From a virus: a DNA stretch of 40,404 bases. The translations under genes and the position numbers were made by a program. How positions within the stretch are numbered: the first letter of the stretch is position 1; every line of letters starts with the position of its first letter. The DNA is taken from positions 1 through 40,404 of IMG/VR virus record IMGVR_UViG_3300025326_000100, one strand, 5' to 3'. Of this stretch, positions 748 through 38,208 are shown one piece after another. The notes under the pieces are model-generated. The model was not told the origin of the DNA and searched no databases. It saw only the letters and a program-made list of their open reading frames with translations.

Positions 748-1890
748 CTAGCTCCTTCTCTCTACCAGTTTGGTGAATGGTTTCTCGTGGACAGCGTCCG
801 CCAATTCAAGCTTCTTTCGTAGCGCTTCCTTCGCTTTCGCGCCATTGCCGCGACCTGCATTTTGCCCGACGATTTTATCGACTTTCGAGAGAGACACGGT
901 CGTGCAATCGGCGAGTTCCGAGTCGGTCAACACCTCCTGCAGGATAGGCCAAGCGCGCTCGGTATCGCACTTTCTGCGGGACTCTTCGGAGAGTTCGACA
1001 ATCTTACCGTCCCATTCGAATGGTCCCTCGTCAGCAACACGTGTCTTGATTGCTGCGAGCGCCTTTTCGCAGACCTTACCGACGAAATTGGCTTGCGCGT
1101 AGACAGCATGCAGTTGCTGAGGATGCATGAGCGCAACCATTCCGGCGACGTCGCCTAGATTGATGCCAGCCATCGTCGCCACGTACGACCGCGCAAGCGC
1201 ATTGGCCGCGCTGCATTCGATGTGCCGTTTGCAGTACTGGCAATGGTCACCAGGGTGATAGATGCCATCCCAGTTGACAACCTCGTCAACGAGCCGTTGG
1301 CGCCATCTGCGCGCGTCGTCTTGGGTCATTGTGTAGTTTTCAATCTGCTGCTCGCGGACCCAAATCACTGTGAACGTTCCGCCCGTGAGTTGCGGATGGG
1401 CAAGCAGGATGGCCGCCAGATATCCTCGCACCTGGTTCGCGTAGTTGCCGTCCTTCCATCCTGTCTTCCAGTCGGCGCCACGTACCTGGTAGCCAGAGAT
1501 TGTGACGATATCAGCGGTTCCGGTGGCAACCAGTCCCGGTACCGCAACGTCAATCTCGACGCCGATTTCAGGCATTGCATTCGGAAAGTACTGCTTGACC
1601 TTCGGCCAGATGCGTTGCGCTTGCGAGCAGAGGTAGCGGACCTCTTGCGAGTCGGCGCTGAAGTCATCGCAGATGCTGTCGACGGAATCCCAATCGATCG
1701 CGTCGTTCTTGATTAGACCCTCGAAACACTTGTGCCCCGCGCTTCCGTTGCGCGCTGGCTCGCTTGTCTCGTTGTATGGTACGGATACTCCTCGAATTGA
1801 ACCAGCGCACAGGAACGCCAGCGGGAGGGATGATGCGCGGAGGGATACAATCTTGTCTGTAATCACCGGCAGTCGTTTCGCGTCGGTCAT
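748..1890 (-). CDS. PD-(D/E)XK exonuclease, Cas4/RecB-like with Fe-S cysteines
   Basis: 380 residues. The N-terminus LRASSLPLAFLCAGS and a following GSAGH resemble the start of DUF2800 and RecB-family phage nucleases. The nuclease core reads GTADIV (Asp127), GADWKTG (Asp140, Lys142) and YANQVRGY (Gln153), which is the expected D...(D/E)xK...Q order. One cysteine near the start (Cys28) and three near residue 220 (CQYCKRHIEC; Cys217, 220, 226) match the 4Fe-4S arrangement of Cas4/AddB-type nucleases. It probably resects DNA ends for the annealing-type protein encoded directly downstream. The chosen ATG at 1890 overlaps the upstream stop as ATGA; an in-frame ATG at 1956 would overlap the upstream gene by 70 bases and lacks this support. 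Confidence 0.85.
   Translation of the reverse strand: MTDAKRLPVITDKIVSLRASSLPLAFLCAGSIRGVSVPYNETSEPARNGSAGHKCFEGLIKNDAIDWDSVDSICDDFSADSQEVRYLCSQAQRIWPKVKQYFPNAMPEIGVEIDVAVPGLVATGTADIVTISGYQVRGADWKTGWKDGNYANQVRGYLAAILLAHPQLTGGTFTVIWVREQQIENYTMTQDDARRWRQRLVDEVVNWDGIYHPGDHCQYCKRHIECSAANALARSYVATMAGINLGDVAGMVALMHPQQLHAVYAQANFVGKVCEKALAAIKTRVADEGPFEWDGKIVELSEESRRKCDTERAWPILQEVLTDSELADCTTVSLSKVDKIVGQNAGRGNGAKAKEALRKKLELADAVHEKPFTKLVERRS
1872..1890. repeat. 19-bp direct repeat, copy 1 (shared gene 5' end)
   Basis: The 19 bases ending in the start codon of the exonuclease gene are identical to 2366-2384 at the start of the gene before it. Both proteins therefore begin MTDAKR. The flanking sequence differs, so the identity is confined to the first codons. 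Confidence 0.9.
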
Positions 1891-2384
1891 GCGAATTTCC
1901 TCGGTCGGTATACGGGTTGCGGCGCTCGGCGAGACTTGAGGTCGGCAAGAATCCACTCATCAACTGTTACGATGTGCGGCGTGGTTCCGATTCCGAATGA
2001 CTTCACATTTTCCGCAGCCAGTTCGTTGATTGCGGTCCATTTGTCAGCGTACATCTCATGCATTGGGTTCGCTGGGTGATCCCAGTTGCGCTCGACGAAG
2101 GCAATCCGTTGCACCGTAGCATGGTCGATACTGAGATTAATGAAGATGCGATCGCTAATCTTCGGCACGTGGTACGGCGCAAACTTGTCATCTTGCCATC
2201 TGACATGTGTGCCTTCGCTACCGTCGAGCATCGTGATTCCGAATGGCGTAACGGCGTCACGAGAGTTCCAAATCACTTCAGAAACCCCCGTGGTCTTGCT
2301 CTCATACTGCATGAGGCAAAACGCCTCGCAGTATTCACAGCCGAATCGCTGTGCGCCTCTCAGTGGTCGTTTCGCGTCGGTCAT
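1887..2384 (-). CDS. Hypothetical early protein, 165 residues
   Basis: Not recognised. The protein is soluble in appearance and rich in aromatic residues, with a CEYCEAFC cluster at residues 16-23 that could bind metal. Its first six residues, MTDAKR, and the DNA beneath them are repeated at the start of the next gene. Both ends overlap neighbours by ATGA (2381-2384 and 1887-1890), so it is translationally coupled upstream to a 55-residue gene and downstream to the exonuclease. It may be an accessory to the recombination pair, but nothing in the sequence proves it. Confidence 0.75.
   Translation of the reverse strand: MTDAKRPLRGAQRFGCEYCEAFCLMQYESKTTGVSEVIWNSRDAVTPFGITMLDGSEGTHVRWQDDKFAPYHVPKISDRIFINLSIDHATVQRIAFVERNWDHPANPMHEMYADKWTAINELAAENVKSFGIGTTPHIVTVDEWILADLKSRRAPQPVYRPRKFA
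2366..2384. repeat. 19-bp direct repeat, copy 2
   Basis: Identical to 1872-1890. It covers the first six codons of the 165-residue gene on the minus strand. Confidence 0.9.
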
Positions 2385-5855: not shown

Positions 5856-6037
5856 GATTTGTCTCCTCGGGTTGGTCGCTGTCGACAATCAGACCCTATC
5901 ACGGTTTTCGGACGATCCAAGATGCCCCCTATATTTGGTATTTGGATCGGCCTTTTTTGGCTCGAAAATAATCCGCTCCGGAGCGGATTTCCGTCCGCTC
6001 CTTGACGGATTTGCTGACACGGGATAGCAGTGGCCCA
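5856..6037. promoter_or_regulatory. Divergent control region with operator-like palindromes
   Basis: This gap separates the minus-strand early operon from the plus-strand regulator gene. It contains a perfect 20-bp palindrome at 5970-5989 (AATCCGCTCCGGAGCGGATT), an 8-bp inverted repeat CGATCCAA/TTGGATCG (5913-5920 with 5942-5949), and TCCGTC/GACGGA (5990-5995 with 6004-6009). The last overlaps a possible -35 box TTGACG at 6002-6007, though the -10 match at 6024-6029 (ATAGCA) is weak. The layout resembles a phage genetic switch read by the adjacent HTH protein. Confidence 0.6.
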
Positions 6038-6280
6038 ATGGCCAAGACCAAAAAACCTACCTCTACTAGTAGAGGGGCACGTCTGCTGGCTGCTCGGGTG
6101 CGCAGTGCCGGCACTCTCCGGGCAGTCGCAGTGCTCGCGGGAGAAAACGAAAACCAACTCGGTCACTATCTGAGAGGCCGTTGCCCGTCTGTCAATGTGC
6201 GGCTGCGGCTCGAACATAGTCTATCGATACCGTTTTTTGCATGGGATCACACAAGAAAGAGCAAGCATGTCCAAAAGTAA
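6038..6280 (+). CDS. Cro/CI-like HTH regulator, 80 residues
   Basis: Starts MAKTKKPTSTSRGARLLAARV. Residues about 14-60 follow the pattern of a lambda-repressor-type helix-turn-helix: GARLLAARVRSAGTLRAVAVL, then GENENQLGHYLRGRCPSVNVRLRLE and a closing IPFFAWD. It faces the palindromic control region and overlaps the next gene by 14 bases. It probably binds the operators at 5913-6009 to set the balance of the two divergent operons. No integrase is seen, so lysogeny is not implied. Confidence 0.7.
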   Translation: MAKTKKPTSTSRGARLLAARVRSAGTLRAVAVLAGENENQLGHYLRGRCPSVNVRLRLEHSLSIPFFAWDHTRKSKHVQK

Positions 6281-7235
6281 GAAGACCACCAAACCAGTCA
6301 ACAAGGCGAAGAAACTTGGAGCCACCAAAAGCAAAGGCGCTCAACGACCCGCAGAGCAAGCGGGAGCACAGCGAAGCGATCGTCCTCGCGAAGCAGACGC
6401 GAAAGCGAAAGCGGGAACGCCTGCGAAAGTCGGGAAGGCGGACCAGAAGGGAGCGCCTACGAAACCGGTGAGGGTCGAGAGAGAAACGCAACATCTCGCG
6501 GTGCAGTTGACCGATTCTGAGATTGACGATCGGCGACATCTAGTCAATCGCCTGCTGCTCGATATCGCGAAAACCAAGGCGCAGGCATCGTCGTTCGCCG
6601 CAACCTCGAAGGCGAACATTGCAACCCTCGAGGGGCAGCTATCCAATGCGGCGCGCGAGCTCGATAGCGGGCAGGTGTTTGCAGACGTGCCGTGCAATCG
6701 CATTTGGGACTACCAGAAAAAGCAGATTCGAGTCGAACGAACTGACACGAAAGAGGTCATCTCGTGCGTCGCGATGTCGAAAGACGATTTGCAGATGACA
6801 ATTCCTGGAGTCGACCCGACGAAGCCGAAAGGACCGAGTAAGGACAAATTACCGCGCGCGGTAACAAAGAGCGCGACGGAGAAGCTCAACAGCGAAGCGG
6901 ACCAGTCCGCGAGCGAACTGAAAGCACGCGCCACGAAGACCAAGCCAGATGTGAGCGACGACCCTTACGGTCGCAATAGTTGGAATTCTGATGAGACTGA
7001 CGAGGACGATCCGGTAACGGAAGCTCCAGATTCCTGCGGAACATGCGGCCATCCCTACGTGCTTGGCTATGACAAGCAGCTCAGGCAGGATGTTCGCATT
7101 CCTGGCTGCCAGTGCGAGGCCAACCGAATGGCGGTCACCGCTCGCGAACTGGACGAGACGGATCCGATCGATAGGGACGACGACGATGAAGATGATTCGG
7201 AAGATGTTGATGACGACTACGACATCGAAGACTAG
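6267..7235 (+). CDS. Conserved early phage protein with a basic N-tail, zinc cluster and acidic C-tail
   Basis: 322 residues. Residues 1-70 are Lys/Ala-rich and disordered. The core (LAVQLTDSEIDDRR..., GQVFADVPCNRIWD, RVERTDTKEVISCVAMS) resembles a phage family with the signature VxCxxxxD...RxDTGEVVxxxPMTxxE, of unknown function. A CGTCGH...GCQC group could bind zinc, and the tail is a run of Asp/Glu. A DNA-associated or DNA-mimic role is possible but unproven. The start at 6267 is preferred over a ring of upstream in-frame codons because it gives the least overlap with the regulator gene. Confidence 0.7.
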   Translation: MSKSKKTTKPVNKAKKLGATKSKGAQRPAEQAGAQRSDRPREADAKAKAGTPAKVGKADQKGAPTKPVRVERETQHLAVQLTDSEIDDRRHLVNRLLLDIAKTKAQASSFAATSKANIATLEGQLSNAARELDSGQVFADVPCNRIWDYQKKQIRVERTDTKEVISCVAMSKDDLQMTIPGVDPTKPKGPSKDKLPRAVTKSATEKLNSEADQSASELKARATKTKPDVSDDPYGRNSWNSDETDEDDPVTEAPDSCGTCGHPYVLGYDKQLRQDVRIPGCQCEANRMAVTARELDETDPIDRDDDDEDDSEDVDDDYDIED

Positions 7236-7767
7236 TTTCTCGCCCGGAGAAGCGCTTTGCCTGGCGGACGAGGTTCTTTCTCGCCCGCCAGCAAAGCCTT
7301 TCATTCGCCGCCCAGAGCTCCTTCCCACGAGGGTGTTCCGGGCGGCTCTGCCGTCCGAATTGTGTCTCGCGTCCAACGCATGGGCGCGTTCGAATCGCTT
7401 CGCAGACGGCGCAATCAAGGACAAGCTCTGGTCGTGGATCGAGCCGCAGGCGTTCGTGTGGCGCGGGAAGCTTGGATATCTTTGGCCGTTCCGCCACGAC
7501 GAAATGTGGCAGCGCCCGCAAGTTATCGCGATCAAGTTCTCCGCGCGCGGTCGTCCTGACAGCGGAGCGAACTTCGCGAAGATGCCGATCGATATGCTGA
7601 CGCAAGCTAAGCGACGTAAGAACAAATTCGGGGTTCCAGTGCTACAGAAACATCGGCTTGGGATCATCGTCGACGATAACGAAACCCACGCGGAGCAAGT
7701 ACCTCCATGGTGGGAACCAATATCCGCTAGCGCTCACTCATTTGTTGTATTGGAGATCAGGGTATGA
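7210..7767 (+). CDS. RusA-like Holliday junction resolvase
   Basis: 185 residues. The C-terminal half has RGRPDSGANFAKMPIDML followed by LGIIVDDNETHAEQVPPWWEP and a closing strand FVVLEIRV. This matches the RusA pattern of PD-x-DN-x-x-K, a following D, then DD near the end. RusA enzymes cut four-way DNA junctions, which suits the recombination genes of this phage. The start at 7210 has CGGAAG upstream and overlaps the previous gene by 26 bases. The stop overlaps the next start as ATGA, and its last ten codons are echoed at the end of the next gene. Confidence 0.65.
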   Translation: MTTTTSKTSFSPGEALCLADEVLSRPPAKPFIRRPELLPTRVFRAALPSELCLASNAWARSNRFADGAIKDKLWSWIEPQAFVWRGKLGYLWPFRHDEMWQRPQVIAIKFSARGRPDSGANFAKMPIDMLTQAKRRKNKFGVPVLQKHRLGIIVDDNETHAEQVPPWWEPISASAHSFVVLEIRV

Positions 7768-8264
7768 TCCGTATTCCTCTGGGAAATAACGCTTATTGCG
7801 TTGCTGACAAGCGGGATGAGCTCCTGCTTTCCGCCTATCGGTGGAGACTGAATACCTATCGGGTCGATGCGCCGCAGTATGCCATCAGCAACAAGAGGAT
7901 TCTCATGCATCGCCTGCTGATGGAGCCTCCAGGATCCATGGTGGTTGATCACGTCAACCACGATACTCTAGACAACAGACGGCGCAATTTGCGCGTATGC
8001 ACGAGAAAACAGAATCAGCATAACATGTCGCTGCGACGAGACTCGAAGAGTGGATTCAAGGGAGTGAGTTTTTACGGTGGCCCTCACCCTTGGCGCGCTA
8101 GCATCCAAACTTGCGGAAAGACAAGGTGGTTAGGCAGATTCTGTTCGGCCATCGACGCGGCTGTTGCTTACGATGTGGCCGCATCTGAGCTGTTCGGTAG
8201 CTTCGCGTGTTTGAATTTTCCAGCGAAGCATCACGCGTTCGTGATTTTGGAGGTGAGGGCATGA
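7764..8264 (+). CDS. HNH homing-type endonuclease with AP2 domain
   Basis: 166 residues. An HNH core lies at about 48-88 (MHRLLMEPPGSMVVDHVNHD, then TLDNRRRNLRVCTRKQNQHN) with the key His and Asn residues present. An AP2-type DNA-binding domain follows at about 97-152 (SGFKGVSFYGGPHPWRASIQ, later LGRFCSAIDAAVAYDVAA and FACLNFP). This two-domain form is typical of free-standing homing endonucleases in phages. The final residues HAFVILEVRA copy HSFVVLEIRV at the end of the preceding gene, and both ends carry a ribosome site and an ATGA junction, which suggests an insertion that repaired its own boundary. Confidence 0.85.
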   Translation: MIRIPLGNNAYCVADKRDELLLSAYRWRLNTYRVDAPQYAISNKRILMHRLLMEPPGSMVVDHVNHDTLDNRRRNLRVCTRKQNQHNMSLRRDSKSGFKGVSFYGGPHPWRASIQTCGKTRWLGRFCSAIDAAVAYDVAASELFGSFACLNFPAKHHAFVILEVRA

Positions 8265-8518
8265 GCCGATTGACTAACGCACTCGGGTGCCTGCGCGAGT
8301 TGAATCTAGCTCAGATAGAGCTGTCACGGTTCCCAGAACCTGCAGTCGCCGATGCGATCGAAGCTCTCGAACTCGAACTCATCGATATCGATCGCTGTGG
8401 CGGATACGAGCATGCCCCGAACCTATCCCCACCACTGCATCACGGCGAGTATCACGCGGGAAGCCCAAACAACCCCGTCACGCAGTTGCGGAATATGAGG
8501 GCGAAATGCAAAGCGTAG
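8261..8518 (+). CDS. Small hypothetical protein, 85 residues
   Basis: Starts MSRLTNALGCLRELNLAQIE. It is helical and acidic in its first half, with a proline- and asparagine-rich end. The start overlaps the HNH gene as ATGA with GGAGGTGAGG just upstream. It is probably the gene that followed the resolvase directly before the endonuclease arrived. No function recognised. Confidence 0.65.
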   Translation: MSRLTNALGCLRELNLAQIELSRFPEPAVADAIEALELELIDIDRCGGYEHAPNLSPPLHHGEYHAGSPNNPVTQLRNMRAKCKA

Positions 8519-9138
8519 CTGCGCTATTCGTTGACCCGAAAGGCCCATACTGGTCGGACCCGCGGTGCGACTGTTGGGACGAGAATCGGGACGCGCGCGA
8601 GTATCGCGGACCGTTGCCAGTTATTGCGCATCCACCGTGCGCGGCCTGGTGCAAGATGGCGTCACTACGGGAGCTTCGCTACGGGATGCCAGTCGGCATC
8701 GATGCCGGATGTTTCGCGTCGGCGCTACAATCTGTTGCAAGATGGGGCGGCGTGCTGGAGCATCCAGCGGGATCGCTAGCCTGGAGCGAATACGGACTGA
8801 CGACGCCAGTGCATGGAGATTGGATGCCAGCGCGTGACATTACTGGACGTATCAATTGGGTGACCGAGGTTTGGCAGGTCGACTACGGGCACAGAGCACG
8901 CAAGGCAACGTGGCTACTATACGTGGGATCCGCTCGACCAGCTCCGATGCGCTTCGAAAAGCGTGACCATTCTGCCTGCGTTAGCGGCTCAACAAACCGC
9001 ACCAAACGATCAACTGGCGGCGGCAATCGCGTTTGGTCTGCCGAGGCCAAGCGCACACCGCTGGCATTCGCCGACGCGCTGATTGAATTGGCCGCGAACT
9101 GCTGGGCGAAACCCGTAGGAGGAAATCCTACGGGTTGA
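8506..9138 (+). CDS. Dcm-like protein with a PPC motif, 210 residues
   Basis: Starts MQSVAALFVDPKGPYW at 8506 behind GAGG. It contains VIAHPPCAAWCKM, WGGVLEHPAGSLAWSEYGL and a later YGHRARKATWLLYVG. This set matches a phage family related in form to cytosine-5 DNA methyltransferases, in which the Pro-Cys pair would be the catalytic motif. At 210 residues it is shorter than classical Dcm enzymes, and I cannot see a clear target-recognition domain, so activity on DNA, or on a modified nucleotide, is uncertain. The stop codon is next to a strong hairpin. Confidence 0.6.
   Translation: MQSVAALFVDPKGPYWSDPRCDCWDENRDAREYRGPLPVIAHPPCAAWCKMASLRELRYGMPVGIDAGCFASALQSVARWGGVLEHPAGSLAWSEYGLTTPVHGDWMPARDITGRINWVTEVWQVDYGHRARKATWLLYVGSARPAPMRFEKRDHSACVSGSTNRTKRSTGGGNRVWSAEAKRTPLAFADALIELAANCWAKPVGGNPTG
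9110..9136. terminator. Hairpin at the end of the Dcm-like gene
   Basis: An 11-bp perfect stem (9110-9120 with 9126-9136) around the loop GGAAA, formed from AACCCGTAGGA. It lies in the last codons of the gene and is followed by GATTTC, only a weak T tract, so it may slow or stop transcription, or be the first of the hairpins described at 9139-9450. Confidence 0.6.
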
Positions 9139-9450
9139 TTTCACTCGAAACTCATTCCCGTTGACCGAATGCGTTTTGTCTCCGCGTCATGTTTCGCCAA
9201 ATGTGACGAGGAAGCATGATTCGTGCTGTTTCGTGACTCGCGTTTCGAAAACGTGGCACAAATGCCGACCAGTAAACTCGGACACGGCTGTCCGAGTTTA
9301 CTCACCGATGAAAATGCCCAAGTCAAGTGGGGCAGTTTCTTGCCCCCACCAGATTTGGGAATAACGTGGACGTTTGGCCCACGCTATTCCGGTGGGCGAA
9401 TTCGAAGGGGACTTGACTTCGGCTCGCATCTGGAACAATCATTCAGAACC
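9139..9450. other. Hairpin-rich non-coding region, origin or operator candidate
   Basis: A 312-base stretch without a convincing gene. It contains a perfect 13-bp stem (9271-9283 with 9290-9302), an 8-bp stem with one bulge (9327-9334 with 9341-9349), a 12-bp stem with one mismatch (9358-9369 with 9379-9390), and a 9-bp inverted repeat bracketing the last two (9320-9328 with 9411-9419). It precedes the small HTH gene and the replication genes, so it could be an operator, a replication start region, or a primer RNA source. Confidence 0.5.
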
Positions 9451-9672
9451 ATGTCCGTAATAGTTCTCAACCCTCGACAAGTCGCGCAAGTAGCCGGCGA
9501 AACCGGTGTTTGCACGAAGACCGTTCGCAAATGGTCGCTCGGTGGGAGGTGCCACGCGGCTACAGACACTGTGCTTTCGCGCGCAGTGGTCGTACTTGGG
9601 TTGAGCCCTGACAATTCTCGTCCAGTTCCCTCGAGGGAAAACTCTCACGAAACAGCGGAGATTTCCCAGTGA
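9451..9672 (+). CDS. Small helix-turn-helix protein, 73 residues
   Basis: Starts MSVIVLNPRQVAQVAGETGV. Residues 8-45 (RQVAQVAGETGVCTKTVRKW, then TDTVLSRAVVVLGL) fit a short HTH of the Cro/MerR type, with a disordered Ser/Pro tail. It lies just after the hairpin cluster and overlaps the replication gene start as GTGA. It may autoregulate the replication operon. An upstream in-frame ATG at 9223 would use the hairpin region as coding sequence and looks unlikely. Confidence 0.6.
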   Translation: MSVIVLNPRQVAQVAGETGVCTKTVRKWSLGGRCHAATDTVLSRAVVVLGLSPDNSRPVPSRENSHETAEISQ

Positions 9673-10496
9673 GTAAGATCGAACTGGACGATCAGATCTT
9701 GAATCACCCGAAATTCGTCCTTCTGATCCGCCAGCATGGGCCCGGTGCGTTTCTGTTTTGGATGGGGCTTCGAGCCTACTGCTCACAACACCTGACCGAT
9801 GGGCTAATTCCTACCGAGATGCTGTCGGAGGTACGCGGTGCGTGCGCTCGCGGTGCGTCGCTGCGACGTCGCGTGGACGCACTGGTGACGCACAGGCTGC
9901 TGCACCGCGTCGACGCCGGCGTCGTGCTGCACGACTATCTCGATCATGCGCAGTCGCGCGCACAGGTGCTTGCTTGGCGTGCAGCAAATGCCGCTAGAAA
10001 GGCGAAAAGCAGGGAGGTGTCACGGCGTGACTCACAGCGTGACCTAACAACGTGTCACGGCGTGACTCACAGCGTGACGGACGCCGTGACTCCGCGAGGA
10101 GTCCCTGCGCCTTCTGCCTCTGCCTCTGCCTCTGCCTTAAGATCTCCTTCGGAGATCCCCCCTAAGCCCCCCCAGGGGGGCAAACCAAAGCCCCCCCGGA
10201 CACGGCAGCCACCGAGAGCCCTGACCGAGCCGCCCGACGCGCTAGACCCGACGCCAGCCACCCTGGCGGTGGCATCCCGAGCCGGTCGAGACTGGCAGGC
10301 AGACTGGGCACGGTGTCGCGACTGGGCGCGCAGCAAGGGCGAGCGGAGAGCAGATTGGCAAGCCACGCTGCGGAACTGGATGACCTCGCCGATCAACGGC
10401 AACGGATCGAATACGAGCAAACCGATCCAATCAGCGCCAACCAACCGAATAGTTTTCAGACTCGGAGATGTGGAAAATGAAGCCACCAATTTGTGA
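9669..10496 (+). CDS. O-like replication initiator protein, 275 residues
   Basis: GTG start overlapping the previous stop as GTGA. Residues 1-100 (IELDDQILNHPKFVLLIRQH, TDGLIPTEML, HDYLDHAQSR) resemble the winged-helix N-domain of phage replication proteins. Residues 110-190 are a low-complexity Ser/Ala/Pro linker, and the end (DWQADWARCRDWARSKGERR) is a helical domain of the kind that loads helicase. The DnaB-type helicase gene follows with a 20-base overlap. The DNA beneath the linker carries out-of-frame iterons, as in the lambda O gene, so the origin probably lies within this gene. Confidence 0.65.
   Translation: MSKIELDDQILNHPKFVLLIRQHGPGAFLFWMGLRAYCSQHLTDGLIPTEMLSEVRGACARGASLRRRVDALVTHRLLHRVDAGVVLHDYLDHAQSRAQVLAWRAANAARKAKSREVSRRDSQRDLTTCHGVTHSVTDAVTPRGVPAPSASASASALRSPSEIPPKPPQGGKPKPPRTRQPPRALTEPPDALDPTPATLAVASRAGRDWQADWARCRDWARSKGERRADWQATLRNWMTSPINGNGSNTSKPIQSAPTNRIVFRLGDVENEATNL
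10017..10157. other. Iterons and hairpin inside the replication gene: origin candidate
   Basis: A perfect 27-bp direct repeat occurs at 10017-10043 and 10052-10078, a 35-base period. Each copy holds the palindrome GTCACGGCGTGAC and a related TCACAGCGTGAC, and a fifth half (GACGCCGTGAC) follows at 10080-10090. A CTCTGC-type pyrimidine run (10110-10137) and a 7-bp hairpin GATCTCC/GGAGATC (10141-10157) come next. Because 35 is not a multiple of three, the repeats encode different peptides, so selection acted on DNA. Confidence 0.65.
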
Positions 10497-11847
10497 CATA
10501 GCGAGCGAGAACGCAATCATCTGCGCAATCTACGATGCGCACGACCGAAGCCCGGACGCTGCTCGTGAGTGTTGTCCTGTAGATTTCTACGACCCGATCA
10601 ATCGCGCAATTTACGAAATCATGGTCGAGCTCAGCGGATCCGATTGGGATCCCAATACACTCATTCGGCGCATGCTTGCTACGCACGGCAAAGACCTCGC
10701 GAGCAAGGCCATGCTGCGTATTCTCGAGCTCCAAGCGCATCCTTTCGTTTTCGATCTTCGCGGAGCGGCGCAATCGATCGCGGACGCGTCCAGGAAACGC
10801 CACATAGTGAACGCAATACGCGAAGCGTCCGCCCTCGCTGAAGAGCATGAGGTTGATCGGGCTCTCGAGCTACTTCAGAAATTGTCAGACGAGCCGATGT
10901 CGAATCGACAGCCGCGTCAATTGCAGGAGTTGCTTTTAGCATCGTACAACGTGGCGCGAACGAAACGTTCGGTAACCGCATTAACGTCGGTTCATTGCGC
11001 GATCGATAGCTTGACTGGCGGCATGCAGCCTGGCGACTGTTGGGTCGTTGGCGGCGGGACGAGTGAGGGGAAATCGAGCTACGTAATTGCAGTCGCAGAC
11101 GAGAATCTAAAACACGGAAAGCGCGTGCTCATCGTGTCGATCGAAGATAGACCGGAGAAATACGGCAATCGTATTTTGAGCAGACGATCCGGTGTCGATG
11201 CTAAACGCATCCGCGATCACAACCTGGATCCATCGGACCACTCGAAGATCGCGACAGTGATAGAATCTGCACCTCCGTCTCCAGTTTTGCTTCACGGTCA
11301 GGGTGAGAAGTGGGAGCGATTATCGCAACGTATTGACGCAACAGTAACGCTCGAGCGTATTGACCTGGTTGTGCTGGACTACGTGCAGGAATGCGAAACG
11401 GAAGAGCGTTTCGGATCTCGCATGCTCGAGTTGCAATCGATCGCTAGGTCATTCCGCGCGATGGTTCGCCGACGGGGTTGCTGTGGAATCATCTGCAGTC
11501 AACTCACCGGTTGCGAGCCTGGTCAAATACCCAGCAAGCAGATGGCGCGTGAATGCAAGGATATCGTCAACGGAGCCGAGGTGGTACTGCTGCTTTACTC
11601 CGTCGACGAAGGTCCAACAACCGCGAGAATACGCAAGCGCTATTGCAACGTCGACAAGTCGAAGGACGGCAATTGCGGAATCGTGGAACTCGATTGGGAC
11701 GACGTGACCGCTAGCTACAAGCGCGTCGCTTCGCGTGACGATTGGGTTGACGATCGGTACGAAACCGAACTGCGAGACATCGACGATGCTATCGGAGCAA
11801 CGTCAATCAACGCCGCGCCACGCGTGGAGCAAGGGATCTTGTTTTGA
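10477..11847 (+). CDS. dnaB: DnaB-type replicative helicase
   Basis: 456 residues, the usual length for phage DnaB proteins. An N-terminal helical domain (about 1-140, SENAIICAIYDAHDR..., FYDPINRAIYEIM) is followed by the RecA-like core with Walker A GGGTSEGKSS (Lys about 199) and Walker B RIDLVVLDYVQ (Asp about 301), then GIICSQL and a KRYCNVDKSKDG segment corresponding to the C-terminal helicase motifs. It unwinds DNA at the fork with the O-like protein as loader. I chose ATG 10477 because GGAG lies 9 bases upstream; ATG 10468 is an alternative adding three residues. Confidence 0.9.
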   Translation: MKPPICDIASENAIICAIYDAHDRSPDAARECCPVDFYDPINRAIYEIMVELSGSDWDPNTLIRRMLATHGKDLASKAMLRILELQAHPFVFDLRGAAQSIADASRKRHIVNAIREASALAEEHEVDRALELLQKLSDEPMSNRQPRQLQELLLASYNVARTKRSVTALTSVHCAIDSLTGGMQPGDCWVVGGGTSEGKSSYVIAVADENLKHGKRVLIVSIEDRPEKYGNRILSRRSGVDAKRIRDHNLDPSDHSKIATVIESAPPSPVLLHGQGEKWERLSQRIDATVTLERIDLVVLDYVQECETEERFGSRMLELQSIARSFRAMVRRRGCCGIICSQLTGCEPGQIPSKQMARECKDIVNGAEVVLLLYSVDEGPTTARIRKRYCNVDKSKDGNCGIVELDWDDVTASYKRVASRDDWVDDRYETELRDIDDAIGATSINAAPRVEQGILF

Positions 11848-14968: not shown

Positions 14969-15574
14969 ATGCCAAGCACTGCGTCCGCCATTCAGAGACT
15001 GATGGATATTCGCTACATGGTTGGCATGGGGCTTCTGAGTGTCAACGACCTGCAGGAGCTACTGGGACTACCCCCAGAATACGCGCAACGAGCTTTCGAG
15101 CGGATGAAAGGGCAATTGTTCGAAGACCTTGATAAGGAAGAGGAAGAGGAAGAGGAAGAGGAACAAGCGATGGAAGAAACAACGATCGAAGAGCTTCGTG
15201 CGGAGCTAGAGGCCATGGCACAAGAGGTCGCAAGAGCGCGAGCAGCCGAGCGTATTGCGCTAGCAGACGCGAGGCGATGTCACGATGTTTTAGACCCGAC
15301 AAATCGAGAACTGCAAGGCTTGCGTCAGCAATTGGCAGACAATGACTTTGCCATCAAAGGCCTGCATGAGCATGTCGCTAGGGCAGACAGGGTGCTCGCT
15401 ATCGCTTCAGAGAGCTTTCAACGCGACGGTCTAGGTAAGGCAGCGGCGCAGCTGTCGGCAATGTCAGAACGACTACGGGACATGGCTACTGTGTTGCAAC
15501 TGGCGTCTATCGATACCCCTTCGGAAACGTCATCCCATACTTCCGAGCCGTCCGCTGTTCCGCCTCACGACTAG
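14969..15574 (+). CDS. Coiled-coil protein with a poly-Glu run, 201 residues
   Basis: Starts MPSTASAIQRLMDIRYMVGM. An N-terminal helical domain (SVNDLQELLGLPPEYAQRAF) is followed by nine Glu residues in a row and then two long coiled coils (ELRAELEAMAQEVARARAAE; LQGLRQQLADNDFAIKGLHE). It is the last gene of the plus-strand replication operon and overlaps the 3' end of the convergent large terminase gene by 68 bases. A scaffold or packaging accessory role is possible but unsupported. Confidence 0.65.
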   Translation: MPSTASAIQRLMDIRYMVGMGLLSVNDLQELLGLPPEYAQRAFERMKGQLFEDLDKEEEEEEEEEQAMEETTIEELRAELEAMAQEVARARAAERIALADARRCHDVLDPTNRELQGLRQQLADNDFAIKGLHEHVARADRVLAIASESFQRDGLGKAAAQLSAMSERLRDMATVLQLASIDTPSETSSHTSEPSAVPPHD

Positions 15575-16979
15575 CAAGGATGCGTAGCTCGAGAGCCTGC
15601 CCCTCGTCGGCAGGCTCTTCCTTGCGCGGGGTGTGGCTGTAGTGCTGAACTTTGCGCCACCCGTAGAGCCCAGCGTCGCAGCAATGGTTTGCTTGTCCTG
15701 GCGTCTCTTCGATCTTTCCTGGCTTTCGTTCGTCTTTCTCATCCTTCCAGAGTAACTCGGATGCCTCCTCAACGAACGGGTCGCACTGTCCGTCAAGCAG
15801 CACGATCATTCCGTTCGCCATGGCTCCGTCGAATAGCTCAATGTAACCGCGCTTGTCGTTCTTCTCGGCGTTGACGATTGGAAGTCCGTGCCACTTGCGC
15901 ATCTCGTTTACGTAGCCCTTACCGAGGGCGCCATGGTCTGCCGTCATGAATTCGAAGTTCCATGCCTCGTTTGCGATGCGCACAGCGTCAGCTACGTCAG
16001 TTGGGGTGTTGATGTTCTCGGGCTTCTTGGCGCTCACCATGTACGACTCAGGAAGGTCATCGCACCACGCCCAATGTACGAGAGCGGTGTTGTTCGTTGC
16101 GCCAATATCGAGCCCTAGTCCATGACTCCAGGTGTGACCATCGGGCAAGTGCGGCATTGTGCGCACAACTTGAATCGACGGGTAGCAGAGCCCGCTCGTG
16201 TCTTGGATCCATACGCCGTCACGTAGTTGCTTGAGCCTCGTAGGTGGTAGCATTGACAGAGTGCGCTCGTATTCTTTCCAGTCGGTGCCTGGGTTGTCCT
16301 CGGCAGTCGCGGGGAAGAAAACTTGCGCCTCGCCGAACTCGTCTCGCGCAACCTTCGGTTTGCATCCGTGAGGAAATCGGTCGACCTCGGAGATCCCGAA
16401 CAGCTTGCACAAGAACTTGTGCGATGGCCCACCGGGGTTCGTGAACAGGCGAACGCGCAACGGGATGCTCTGCTGGAAGTCGAGAGTACGACGCAATCGC
16501 GCGAACATATGACGGAGTTGCTTCTCTGTGAACTGCGTTGCCTCGTCGATTCCAATGAAATGGAATTCTGCTGACTGGTATCGGTCGAGATCCGCGTCGC
16601 TGTCGAGGTAACCGAACGCGATCTTGGCTCCGCTCGGGAAGCGAAACCACATGTTGTTTGCTTCCCACTTCGCTGGCGATTTGTCCCACCACTTGTGCGC
16701 TCGATCGAGCAACGCGCCTGGAAGCATGAGGTCCTTGTAGGTGCGCCGCAGGAGGATCGCGGAGTAGTCCGGAGAGGCAATCCCCTGCAGGGCTGCCATG
16801 AGTGCCACGTCCGATTTGCCGCAGTTGGCGCGGCCGCCGTACATGGCCAGTCGCATCCCGAGTGAAAGAAATTCCGCCTGCCTCTCGCTCGGGATATGCG
16901 GACAATACAGGCTTAGGTCGTGATTCGAGGCGGTAGTTGCGGCAGCTGAGCTGGTGCTGAGCATTGCGGTATTGGGCAT
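15507..16979 (-). CDS. terL: Terminase large subunit (packaging ATPase and nuclease)
   Basis: 490 residues. The ATPase has Walker A GGRANCGKS (Lys about 55), Walker B FIGIDEATQ (Asp145, Glu146) and a coupling motif LFTNPGG. The nuclease half has LGLDIGATN (Asp291), FMTADHGA (Asp348) and NHCCDAGLYGW (Asp435), the three metal-binding acids of the RNase H-like fold. It pumps DNA into the capsid through the portal. The start at 16979 (MPNTAM) is likely; 16964 or 17000 are options, and an in-frame lead to 17237 is low in complexity. It is encoded opposite to the portal gene, an unusual orientation. Confidence 0.9.
   Translation of the reverse strand: MPNTAMLSTSSAAATTASNHDLSLYCPHIPSERQAEFLSLGMRLAMYGGRANCGKSDVALMAALQGIASPDYSAILLRRTYKDLMLPGALLDRAHKWWDKSPAKWEANNMWFRFPSGAKIAFGYLDSDADLDRYQSAEFHFIGIDEATQFTEKQLRHMFARLRRTLDFQQSIPLRVRLFTNPGGPSHKFLCKLFGISEVDRFPHGCKPKVARDEFGEAQVFFPATAEDNPGTDWKEYERTLSMLPPTRLKQLRDGVWIQDTSGLCYPSIQVVRTMPHLPDGHTWSHGLGLDIGATNNTALVHWAWCDDLPESYMVSAKKPENINTPTDVADAVRIANEAWNFEFMTADHGALGKGYVNEMRKWHGLPIVNAEKNDKRGYIELFDGAMANGMIVLLDGQCDPFVEEASELLWKDEKDERKPGKIEETPGQANHCCDAGLYGWRKVQHYSHTPRKEEPADEGQALELRILASREAEQRTARKYGMTFPKGYR
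15592..15618 (+). terminator. Terminator-like hairpin for the replication operon
   Basis: AGAGCCTGCC (15592-15601) pairs perfectly with 15609-15618 around a 7-base loop and is followed by TCCTT. It starts 17 bases after the last plus-strand gene, within the antisense 3' coding end of terL. It probably limits plus-strand readthrough into the terminase region. Confidence 0.6.
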
Positions 16980-16998
16980 GCGATGGCCTGTTGGTACC

Positions 16999-17298
16999 AT
17001 GAGCTTGGCCCCAGATGCGCCCGAGAGTCCAGTCCCCGACGATGGGGGCAACCTTGCTCCGGGCGCTCTAGCGACGGTCCTGCAGGTGCTACACGAGTGC
17101 GGGCAGCTCGGTTGCGTCACCCGAGTCGATGTCGGTCCGGCTGGGGTGCGGGTTGATTTCGGGCTGCGCGGGACGCCAGCGCAGCCGCAGGAACCAGTCA
17201 CAAGCGACGGCAACACCAAGCCCCCGCCTGCGCTCACTCGAGCCCAGCAAGCTCGTCAAGCTTTTCCCACGGCCCTATTCCCGCGGGGCACCAAATGA
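16999..17298 (+). CDS. First late-operon gene, hypothetical, 99 residues
   Basis: Starts MSLAPDAPESPVPDDGGNLA. The middle (ATVLQVLHECGQLGCVTRVD) and GVRVDFGLR look folded, with a Pro/Gln-rich tail. It is divergent from terL, with starts about 20 bases apart, and it ends in an ATGA overlap with the portal gene. The start is uncertain because no strong ribosome site is visible. Its place before the portal might suit a packaging or head gene. Confidence 0.55.
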   Translation: MSLAPDAPESPVPDDGGNLAPGALATVLQVLHECGQLGCVTRVDVGPAGVRVDFGLRGTPAQPQEPVTSDGNTKPPPALTRAQQARQAFPTALFPRGTK

Positions 17299-36242: not shown

Positions 36243-37339
36243 ACCTGAAATCGATCGCAACCTGGCTTCCGTGGCTACTCGCAAACTGGGCGAAGATTGG
36301 CCGCGTGCTACTTGCGGTAGCGCTCGCGCTCGGAATGGTTTCCGAGCTGCCGATCGCCAATACCGAGCCAACTGCCGAAACCGCTGGCAGCTGTTCGCCA
36401 GCAGACTGCAAGACCGTCATGATCAACGCTGCGAAATACTCAACCACCCCCACCCGGATCCTAACGTGTTGCCTGGCGATCGTCGCCACAGCCTGCCCGA
36501 TCGTTCCGACACCGGCACCGGTGCCGCCGACTCCCCCTGTTGGGCAGGGCGGAATGGTCAGCTACGGCGGCTCACCCGCTACCGGCGGGAGCGTGGCCAC
36601 TGGCGGCGCTGCAGTGACCTTCCCGAAGTGCGATGGGCAGCCTGGGCAAATGCGCGCACCCCGCAAATCGGAGTCGACTCCGCGTAAATTTGGACCACCT
36701 ACGAGGCCACGGGACGCCATGCGGGCGGCACCGCCTATCCCAGTCACTGGCGCGTCGGTCTGGTGGGAGCCCAATGACCCGCTCCCGCTCGACCAGGGCT
36801 CGGTCGGCAGCTGCGTTGGCAACGACGTGGCCCATGTAAGCGCAACCCAGCCCTACACCAGGCACGCGACGCAGGCGGATGCTTTGGCGTGTTACTCGGC
36901 CGCCACTAAGCTCGACAACGGCTGCGCATGGGACGCGAAGTCGTGCCCCGGAAGCTACCCGCCCAACGACGTTGGGAGCTATGCTGAATCGGGGTTCCGT
37001 GCGGCAACGTCAATGGGCTGGTTTCGCGGAACACGCCCGGTGCAGCAAACCCTGCAGGGGTGGCATGACGCGCTGCTAATCGGACCATGCGGGTTCGATC
37101 AAAATTGGTATCAGCACGGTTTCTCCCCAGACCGATGCGGGGAAGTTGCAATCACCGGTGCCCTTGCCGGTGGGCATTCAACGGAGGCTCTCGGCTTCGA
37201 TGTCGATCTCCAACGCATGTGGCTACGCAACAGCTGGGGGGACTGGTCACTGCGTGGCGGGTTCTTCTTTTACCCGATCTCGAGCCTACAGAAACTTTAC
37301 CTTTCTGGCGCCGAAATGGTCTGCCCGAGCGTGCCATGA
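36239..37339 (+). CDS. Papain-like (C1-type) cysteine peptidase with N-terminal membrane segment
   Basis: 366 residues. A hydrophobic helix (about 12-40) and a second one ending at Cys86 come first, then a Pro/Gly linker, then the peptidase at about 165-366. The active-site set is complete: LDQGSVGSCVGN gives Gln186 and Cys192, GGHSTEALGFD gives His313, and WLRNSWGDW gives Asn331. Further cysteines (C218, C229, C236, C284, C300, C362) suggest disulfides, so it likely acts outside the cytoplasm. The gene overlaps the spike and GH10 genes by ATGA. Targets could be host surface proteins or peptide bridges. Confidence 0.75.
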   Translation: MNLKSIATWLPWLLANWAKIGRVLLAVALALGMVSELPIANTEPTAETAGSCSPADCKTVMINAAKYSTTPTRILTCCLAIVATACPIVPTPAPVPPTPPVGQGGMVSYGGSPATGGSVATGGAAVTFPKCDGQPGQMRAPRKSESTPRKFGPPTRPRDAMRAAPPIPVTGASVWWEPNDPLPLDQGSVGSCVGNDVAHVSATQPYTRHATQADALACYSAATKLDNGCAWDAKSCPGSYPPNDVGSYAESGFRAATSMGWFRGTRPVQQTLQGWHDALLIGPCGFDQNWYQHGFSPDRCGEVAITGALAGGHSTEALGFDVDLQRMWLRNSWGDWSLRGGFFFYPISSLQKLYLSGAEMVCPSVP

Positions 37340-38208
37340 AATTCATCGGCAACACCTGCCCATTCGGCAAGCCAGTTCCGGACGGGTTTGCGGATCTATG
37401 GCAGCAATTGTCAATGGACTCCGATTCGAAGTGGGGCCACGTGCAACCAGCTTCGGCTAGTGAGTGGAGTTGGGGACCTGTTGACAGGGCTTACCAGTAC
37501 GCGAAGGCTCACGGGATCCCGTTCAAGCAGCACAATTTCTTTTGCAGGAACCAGCAACCCGCATGGGTAAACGAGCGGAATGTTGCAACGGTTGGCCCGG
37601 CTTGGATCGAAGCATTCGGAAAGCGATATCCCGACACCGCTTTGATCGATGTCGTGAACGAGCCACTGCCAGACCATAACCCCCCGCTCTACACCAAGGG
37701 AATGGGTGGCACCGGCGGCACTGGATACGACTGGATTGTGACCGCGTTCGCATGGGCTCGCCAGTATTGCCCAGGCGCAATTCTGCTGGTCAACGACTAC
37801 AACATCATCGAGCGGGAAGAGGACTGCAACTGGTTCGTTACCATGATGCAACGCTTGCTTGCGACTGGAGCCCAAATAGATGCCATCGGCGCGCAAGGCC
37901 ATGACGTTTACAAGATCGGGACAGCCAAAGCGAAAGTCTACCTGAACCGGATCGCTTCGCTCGGACTTCCGATCTACATCACGGAATTCGAGGTAGACCT
38001 GGAGGATGACAATGAACAGCTTCGTTGCATGCAAGAGGCAATCTCCATGTTCTACGAGCACCCAGCGGTCAAAGGGATCACCTGTTGGGGGTACATCGAA
38101 GGCATGATGTGGAATCAGCGTCCCAATGGCTGGCTGGTTGACTCGCATGGAAAGCGAAGGCCAGCAATGGACTGGCTGCAAGACTTCATCAGAAAGAACA
38201 CACCATGA
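37336..38208 (+). CDS. Glycoside hydrolase family 10 (endo-xylanase-like) enzyme
   Basis: 290 residues, starting MKFIGNTCPFGKPVPDGFAD at an ATGA overlap. The GH10 barrel is evident: DSKWGHVQP (like NEMKWE), PFKQHNFFCRNQQPAW (like HTLVWHSQLPSW), DVVNEPL with acid/base Glu109, IDAIGAQGHD with His189, ITEFEVD with nucleophile Glu217, and GITCWGYIEGMMW. The Trp and His usual after HTLV are Cys70 and Arg71, so sugar preference may differ from true xylanase. No signal peptide is present. It may be a virion depolymerase, a release enzyme or a substitute for a wall-degrading enzyme. Confidence 0.85.
   Translation: MKFIGNTCPFGKPVPDGFADLWQQLSMDSDSKWGHVQPASASEWSWGPVDRAYQYAKAHGIPFKQHNFFCRNQQPAWVNERNVATVGPAWIEAFGKRYPDTALIDVVNEPLPDHNPPLYTKGMGGTGGTGYDWIVTAFAWARQYCPGAILLVNDYNIIEREEDCNWFVTMMQRLLATGAQIDAIGAQGHDVYKIGTAKAKVYLNRIASLGLPIYITEFEVDLEDDNEQLRCMQEAISMFYEHPAVKGITCWGYIEGMMWNQRPNGWLVDSHGKRRPAMDWLQDFIRKNTP

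Follow-up and report, generated by a model that had tools for sequence, protein, structure and literature searches.

A free-standing HNH-AP2 endonuclease gene in a viral genome ends in what is probably the displaced tail of its upstream neighbour

In a viral genome (IMG/VR virus record IMGVR_UViG_3300025326_000100, here analysed as one stretch of 40,404 bases that we refer to as the window), we found an HNH-AP2 endonuclease gene whose last ten codons resemble those of the gene directly upstream. The evidence favours a reading in which the two tails are diverged alleles of one gene end, the left having come with the HNH gene and the right being the displaced end of the resident. The HNH-AP2 gene probably entered along with a donor's upstream gene, either whole or in its 3′ part, and its right edge would have been joined within the last codons of the resident copy. 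The original prediction had an endonuclease gene insert at the stop of the upstream gene and keep or rebuild the junction, copying the end of its neighbour; the part that stands is that the HNH insertion retained the tail, the ribosome site and the ATGA, and the part that gives way is the copying, for which diverged alleles are the favoured account.

The upstream gene lies at positions 7240-7767 on the plus strand, with a start codon that is uncertain (the frame is open from 7063, and conservation begins at about 7276). It is preceded by a gene at 6195-7235 (plus strand), which has no family match and is also its neighbour in the relative described below, and followed by the HNH-AP2 gene (7764-8264, plus strand, 166 amino acids), a gene for 85 amino acids without a family match (8261-8518, plus strand) and a gene with a profile match to phrog_12600 (8506-9138, plus strand). 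ATGA overlaps couple the HNH gene to the upstream gene at 7764-7767 and the 85-residue gene to the HNH gene at 8261-8264. The phrog_12600 family, which has no known function, is common, with 425 matching stretches in viral contigs, and is also present in Microviridae and Pseudomonas phages. Elsewhere in the window we observed a DUF2800/PD-(D/E)XK nuclease (748-1956, minus strand), a terminase large subunit (15507-17000) encoded on the minus strand and flanked by plus-strand gene blocks, and a glycosyl hydrolase family 10 (xylanase-type) protein (37087-38208, plus strand; Pfam E = 8e-47), which in a phage is a candidate for unusual cargo or for a lysis or depolymerase function.

That the inserted gene encodes a homing-type endonuclease of the HNH-AP2 kind, as first proposed, is borne out by its profile matches and by alignment. 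The product matches phrog_99 (E = 2.4e-38) and Pfam HNH_3 (E = 1.9e-9; 37.4 bits against a cut-off of 24.8), and the catalytic residues of the HNH (HNN) motif, D62, H63, N65, D70, N71, R72, N75, N84 and N87 are invariant in the alignment with HNH-AP2 relatives. Residues 96-145 reach 18.9 bits with Pfam AP2, under the cut-off of 33.3, and the alignment with AP2-bearing relatives runs to the LNFP at the end of the domain. No Rfam match was obtained for 6000-10500 on either strand, and the HNH ORF sits between ATGA-coupled ORFs, outside any intron or intein. Judged by these matches, the protein is a free-standing homing-type endonuclease of the phrog_99 class, with cleavage and homing predicted. 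Relatives of HNH-AP2 proteins are plentiful, often several per genome, in metagenome-assembled genomes of Planctomycetota (Phycisphaerae, Sedimentisphaerales; genome contig matches L182-L261). Past the AP2 end, the window's protein carries a C-terminal extension, HAFVILEVRA, encoded with its stop at 8232-8264 (plus strand). Of the seven aligned HNH-AP2 relatives, some terminate with the AP2 domain or close to it and others bear unrelated extensions; none has a tail of this kind. We consider it fairly likely that the extension was once the end of an allele of the upstream gene and that, once displaced, it was fused to the HNH protein in frame.

The extension is encoded within the right copy of a 38-nt ungapped direct repeat of 74% identity (7734-7771 and 8231-8268, both plus strand), which spans the gene tail, the ribosome site and an ATGAnCCG start, and extends beyond the ATG into the following gene. 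The left copy comprises the tail HSFVVLEIRV, the SD GGAG and ATGATCCG, and the right copy the tail HAFVILEVRA, the SD GGAGGTGA and ATGAGCCG, so providing the ribosome site of the 85-residue gene. Both endings and their ATGA were thus found where the original prediction had placed them, and each tail does hold the ribosome site for the next start, the repeat including both SD and ATGA. The similarity runs slightly further than had been noted, whereas the likeness of the tails had been overstated: a recount gives 6 of 10 identical residues instead of 7, the other four being conservative, and the ten codons, said to differ mostly silently, comprise four that are identical, two that differ silently and four conservative replacements.

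Part of this likeness arises because the ribosome site, GGAGGTGAGG before the ATGA, encodes E-V-R in this frame, and two unrelated tails with an SD in the same frame before an ATGA might in principle end in chance-similar peptides. We regard such convergence as highly improbable. As controls we took, from the viral loci gathered, the tails of 622 further ORFs ending in ATGA, 276 of which have an SD core; these 276 are dissimilar to our pair, and while the pair reaches a BLOSUM score of 39, the best of the 622 scores 14 against the upstream tail and 18 against the HNH tail. For the six residues outside the SD core, an equally good score was obtained in none of 1,000,000 random draws of the phage's residues (P <1e-6). 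Given these scores, we conclude that the two tails are homologous.

The origin of the HNH tail is illuminated by a distant, syntenic relative, IMGVR_UViG_3300009506_000101, which was found solely by a whole-record search of contigs sharing the gene at 8506-9138 and which encodes a homologue of the upstream gene (35-40% identity, E = 1.7e-15). It also shares the preceding gene (30% identity over 113 amino acids, with the order kept) and has a DnaB-like gene related to that of the window. No HNH gene lies at the equivalent place, and the relative differs from the window in its downstream genes. Its upstream-gene homologue carries the motif once, as ...WWEPAPARSGLVFLEVRS (FLEVRS), followed by 18 more residues, so that its LEVR is internal to the protein and away from any start, which again argues against convergence on a ribosome site. 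For HNH-less relatives, a single copy of the tail and a direct join of the upstream gene to the 85-residue gene had been anticipated; the motif is indeed single in this relative, whose downstream genes differ. Because HNH relatives lack the motif and the homologue in the HNH-less relative has it in a single copy, we consider it a feature of the upstream gene that was acquired by the HNH gene. The upstream gene gave no relatives in protein searches against phages, viral contigs or genome contigs, queries with terminase, portal and helicase brought no close relative to light, and no HNH-less empty site with the window's own downstream gene was found.

The upstream gene had also been named a resolvase, a name that no profile search supports. 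Its protein has no match in Pfam, PHROG or PDB, the RusA profile PF05866 included, and its homologue in the relative has no Pfam match; hhalign against Streptococcus RusA returned a probability of 0.1 with very shallow alignments, and single-sequence AlphaFold gave no usable fold for the protein (pLDDT 31). By eye, the RusA pattern PDxDN..K with a downstream DD can be likened to PDSGANFAK...IDML...IIVDD in the window and PDRTSDWSK...IDVL...IIQDD in the relative, with the DxD unconserved, and we note these RusA-like motifs as unconfirmed.

The manner in which the two copies differ bears on how they arose. When substitutions were simulated at the observed number without protein constraint, between 0.05 and 0.09% of the runs left the peptide as well conserved as it is (P about 5e-4 to 9e-4), and because such conservation is so rarely obtained, the copies appear to have diverged as coding sequence of one protein. 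This weighs against an alternative in which the insertion doubled about 38 bp of the resident junction in place, by a target-site-like duplication or a template switch, and the copies diverged afterwards. Such an event would put the copies exactly at both ends of the insert and in the form of a direct repeat, as they are found, but a simple target-site duplication implies flanking repeats that diverge without constraint, whereas those in the window, at 74% identity, carry a constraint at the protein level (P about 5e-4); their 26% divergence has this character even though one copy would have been freed from selection on the upstream gene. A duplication in place also leaves unexplained a shift in composition within the upstream gene, whose GC3 is 0.73 up to about 7603 and 0.50 beyond it (permutation p = 0.024 one-sided, 0.047 two-sided). 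The drop is as if the 3′ part of the gene (7603-7767, plus strand) had arrived with the HNH gene, and such a joint import is possible, the shift in the window being modest and the GC content of the HNH body only slightly below that of the phage. Together with a further case described below, these observations make a duplication in place unlikely in our estimation, and we retain diverged alleles as the favoured reading.

The architecture recurs. In a protein-level survey, we scored how closely the ends of the upstream and HNH genes resemble each other at 81 HNH-AP2 loci that have an adjacent upstream gene, and the top three were L155, the window and L144; in a DNA-level survey of 171 loci, L144 and the window stood out again. 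In L144, a helicase gene ends in GGKVKAA-ATGAG and 25 nt of this junction (92% identity) are repeated at the HNH end, where the HNH gene reads the copy in another frame; it departs from the left copy at two positions, each of them silent when read in the frame of the helicase, which speaks further against duplication in place. In L155, a zinc-ribbon gene ends in W-TV-CPSCR and the HNH gene in W-LH-CPSCR, with silent differences in three codons, the AP2 domain of the HNH protein being shortened where the tail starts and the tail being in frame. As far as can be read from the joints, these two loci have the same architecture as the window, so the scar is present in at least two other viruses. 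Clear tail duplication is seen in about three of the 81 loci and is not the usual outcome, and because none of twelve more HNH loci, taken from isolated phages, yielded a clear example, we consider a long displaced tail uncommon.

At each of the three loci, the GC3 of the upstream gene declines towards its 3′ end (p = 0.024, 0.020 and <0.0004; combined 2e-5). Overall, a drop was found in 13 of 62 genes upstream of HNH genes against 31 of 361 mechanically defined control ORFs (p = 0.006, or 0.045 when the three cases are left out). The three loci also bear on whether the HNH protein has been selected to retain its tail, whatever the origin of the latter, for instance as a β-strand contacting DNA or the product of the upstream gene. 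In the window and in L155 the tail is read in frame, and its divergence is protein-constrained, as such selection would have it; HNH relatives, though, are without such tails and the HNH gene of L144 reads its copy in another frame, and we rate this explanation as quite unlikely. The displaced end of a resident allele remains our preferred account.

Some further loci deserve mention. A 29-nt repeat flanks the HNH-AP2 gene of L145 (2438-2466 and 2936-2964) and corresponds, on the opposite strand, to a duplicated C-terminus (VIEQQLKEL and VIQQQLEEL) of a convergent gene, so that this locus may be a mirror-image further case. In Rhizobium phage RHph_N65 (L090), the last ten codons of the integrase gene before the HNH-AP2 gene (end at about 1968-1998) have a GC3 of 0.30 against 0.89 earlier in the gene, and the integrase end is possibly imported. 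No near relatives were found for an empty-site comparison of L155, L144 or L090. A high repeat score at L254 proved to be an artefact of two tandem HNH genes, and L096, considered as a second resolvase-HNH pair, was rejected because its upstream gene is a tail terminator.

Phages of Streptococcus thermophilus, which are cultured dairy phages, offer a comparison of empty and filled sites. In CHPC1230 and 73, the gene for SSB is followed by that for RusA (154 codons including the stop) and by a gene beginning MKSKYKDK, while SW4 and CHPC930 have, between SSB and the same MKSKYKDK gene, a different RusA (143 codons, 45-48% amino acid identity) and an HNH-AP2 gene. When SW4 is compared with 73, identity is mostly at least 0.87 over SSB and the opening ~50 nt of rusA, sinks to about 0.5 or lower in RusA and HNH, and climbs back to 0.98-1.0 in an abrupt joint at GGAATGAAAAGC, which comprises the last codon of the resident rusA together with the start of the gene that follows; the final residues of the SW4 HNH protein, NEKQIQR, are encoded by resident sequence in another frame. 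The second RusA allele has relatives in S. pneumoniae phages (H163-H168), and both resolvases scanned, one per allele, reach Pfam PF05866. From this pattern of identity and the difference in alleles, it follows that in SW4 and CHPC930 the HNH gene came with a foreign upstream gene and was joined on its right at the end of the resident one, although the case could also be read as an ordinary module exchange with HNH as a passenger. As in the window, an HNH-AP2 gene directly follows a resolvase gene (putative in the window), and a different resolvase allele accompanies HNH with the right joint at the resident rusA end, as in the event we propose; unlike in the window, only a few resident nucleotides are retained, so that the type of joint is seen and a long displaced tail is absent, and the resolvase is a true RusA (PF05866). 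The two-allele reading of the window therefore draws on the protein-constrained differences, on the GC3 drop in the three cases and on the association of the S. thermophilus HNH gene with a different RusA allele, and the joint import of an upstream 3′ end with HNH, in which the right joint falls where the resident gene ends, may be said to be supported by parallel cases.

From joints that are read from the sequence, we infer a one-sided homing event, including the cut, the direction of transfer and the identity of the resident copy. An HNH-less upstream gene would have been cut in its 3′ region; on the left, the donor would have been invaded by homology within the upstream gene, and the donor's 3′ end of that gene would have been copied into the resident along with the HNH gene; on the right, a non-homologous join would have led into the remaining tail of the resident gene. 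The upstream gene would thereby be complete and end in the donor tail, which bears the ribosome site of the HNH gene, and the resident tail, displaced rightwards, would supply the HNH protein with its last 10 residues while retaining the ribosome site and ATGA overlap of the 85-residue gene.

How free-standing homing endonuclease genes first settle between coupled genes without damage to the neighbours has been little documented beyond T4. The displaced tail of a neighbour is a searchable scar from which one can read the direction and extent of the imported stretch and predict where the cut was made, and displaced tails may account for unusual C-terminal extensions in the HNH proteins of phages and for mosaic 3′ ends in the genes upstream of them. 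We would put forward, with less confidence than the event in the window itself and as a conjecture that may fail, that HNH-AP2 genes in the tightly packed operons of phages often travel in one piece with the 3′ end of the preceding gene and join the last codons of the resident. If true, such genes would have a general way, marked by a readable scar, of invading coupled genes while leaving them unbroken, the target gene receiving a new end and its old end becoming the C-terminus of the endonuclease and keeping the ribosome site of the next gene.

Integrative elements that insert in the 3′ ends of genes rebuild them, the new end coming from the element and the old end being displaced to the far side. 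The outcome in the window would be the same in terms of new and displaced ends; there is, however, no integrase and no perfect att repeat, the repeat being 74% identical with divergence at the protein level. Among phages of Xanthomonas oryzae, the HNN-AP2 genes of Xp10, OP1 and Xop411 are of the same domain type as the window gene and are likewise scattered and present or absent among relatives, with flanks described as being without conserved sequences, and duplicated neighbour tails, as found in the window, are not reported in the parts of that account available to us (PMC2248197). Closer in arrangement are the free-standing endonucleases SegF, SegG and MobE of T4-like phages, which undergo intronless homing with co-conversion of neighbouring sequence (PMC2988022). 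As in the window, a free-standing endonuclease gene there lies between coupled genes, and the flank of the host gene is co-converted, as we propose for the window; the window differs in that its right side is apparently a non-homologous join in the end of the resident neighbour, that the displaced tail would form the C-terminus of the endonuclease, and that cleavage is here predicted. For the right side, the homing of the T4 td intron provides a precedent: if just one of the two sides finds homology, repair of the other proceeds illegitimately, at microhomology (PMC2988022), as in the event proposed here, in which one end would be resolved by homology and the other illegitimately. While td is an intron in an experimental system, the window would hold a natural scar, deduced for a free-standing HNH-AP2 gene, and this scar of one-sided transfer is probably best placed as a variant on known homing themes.
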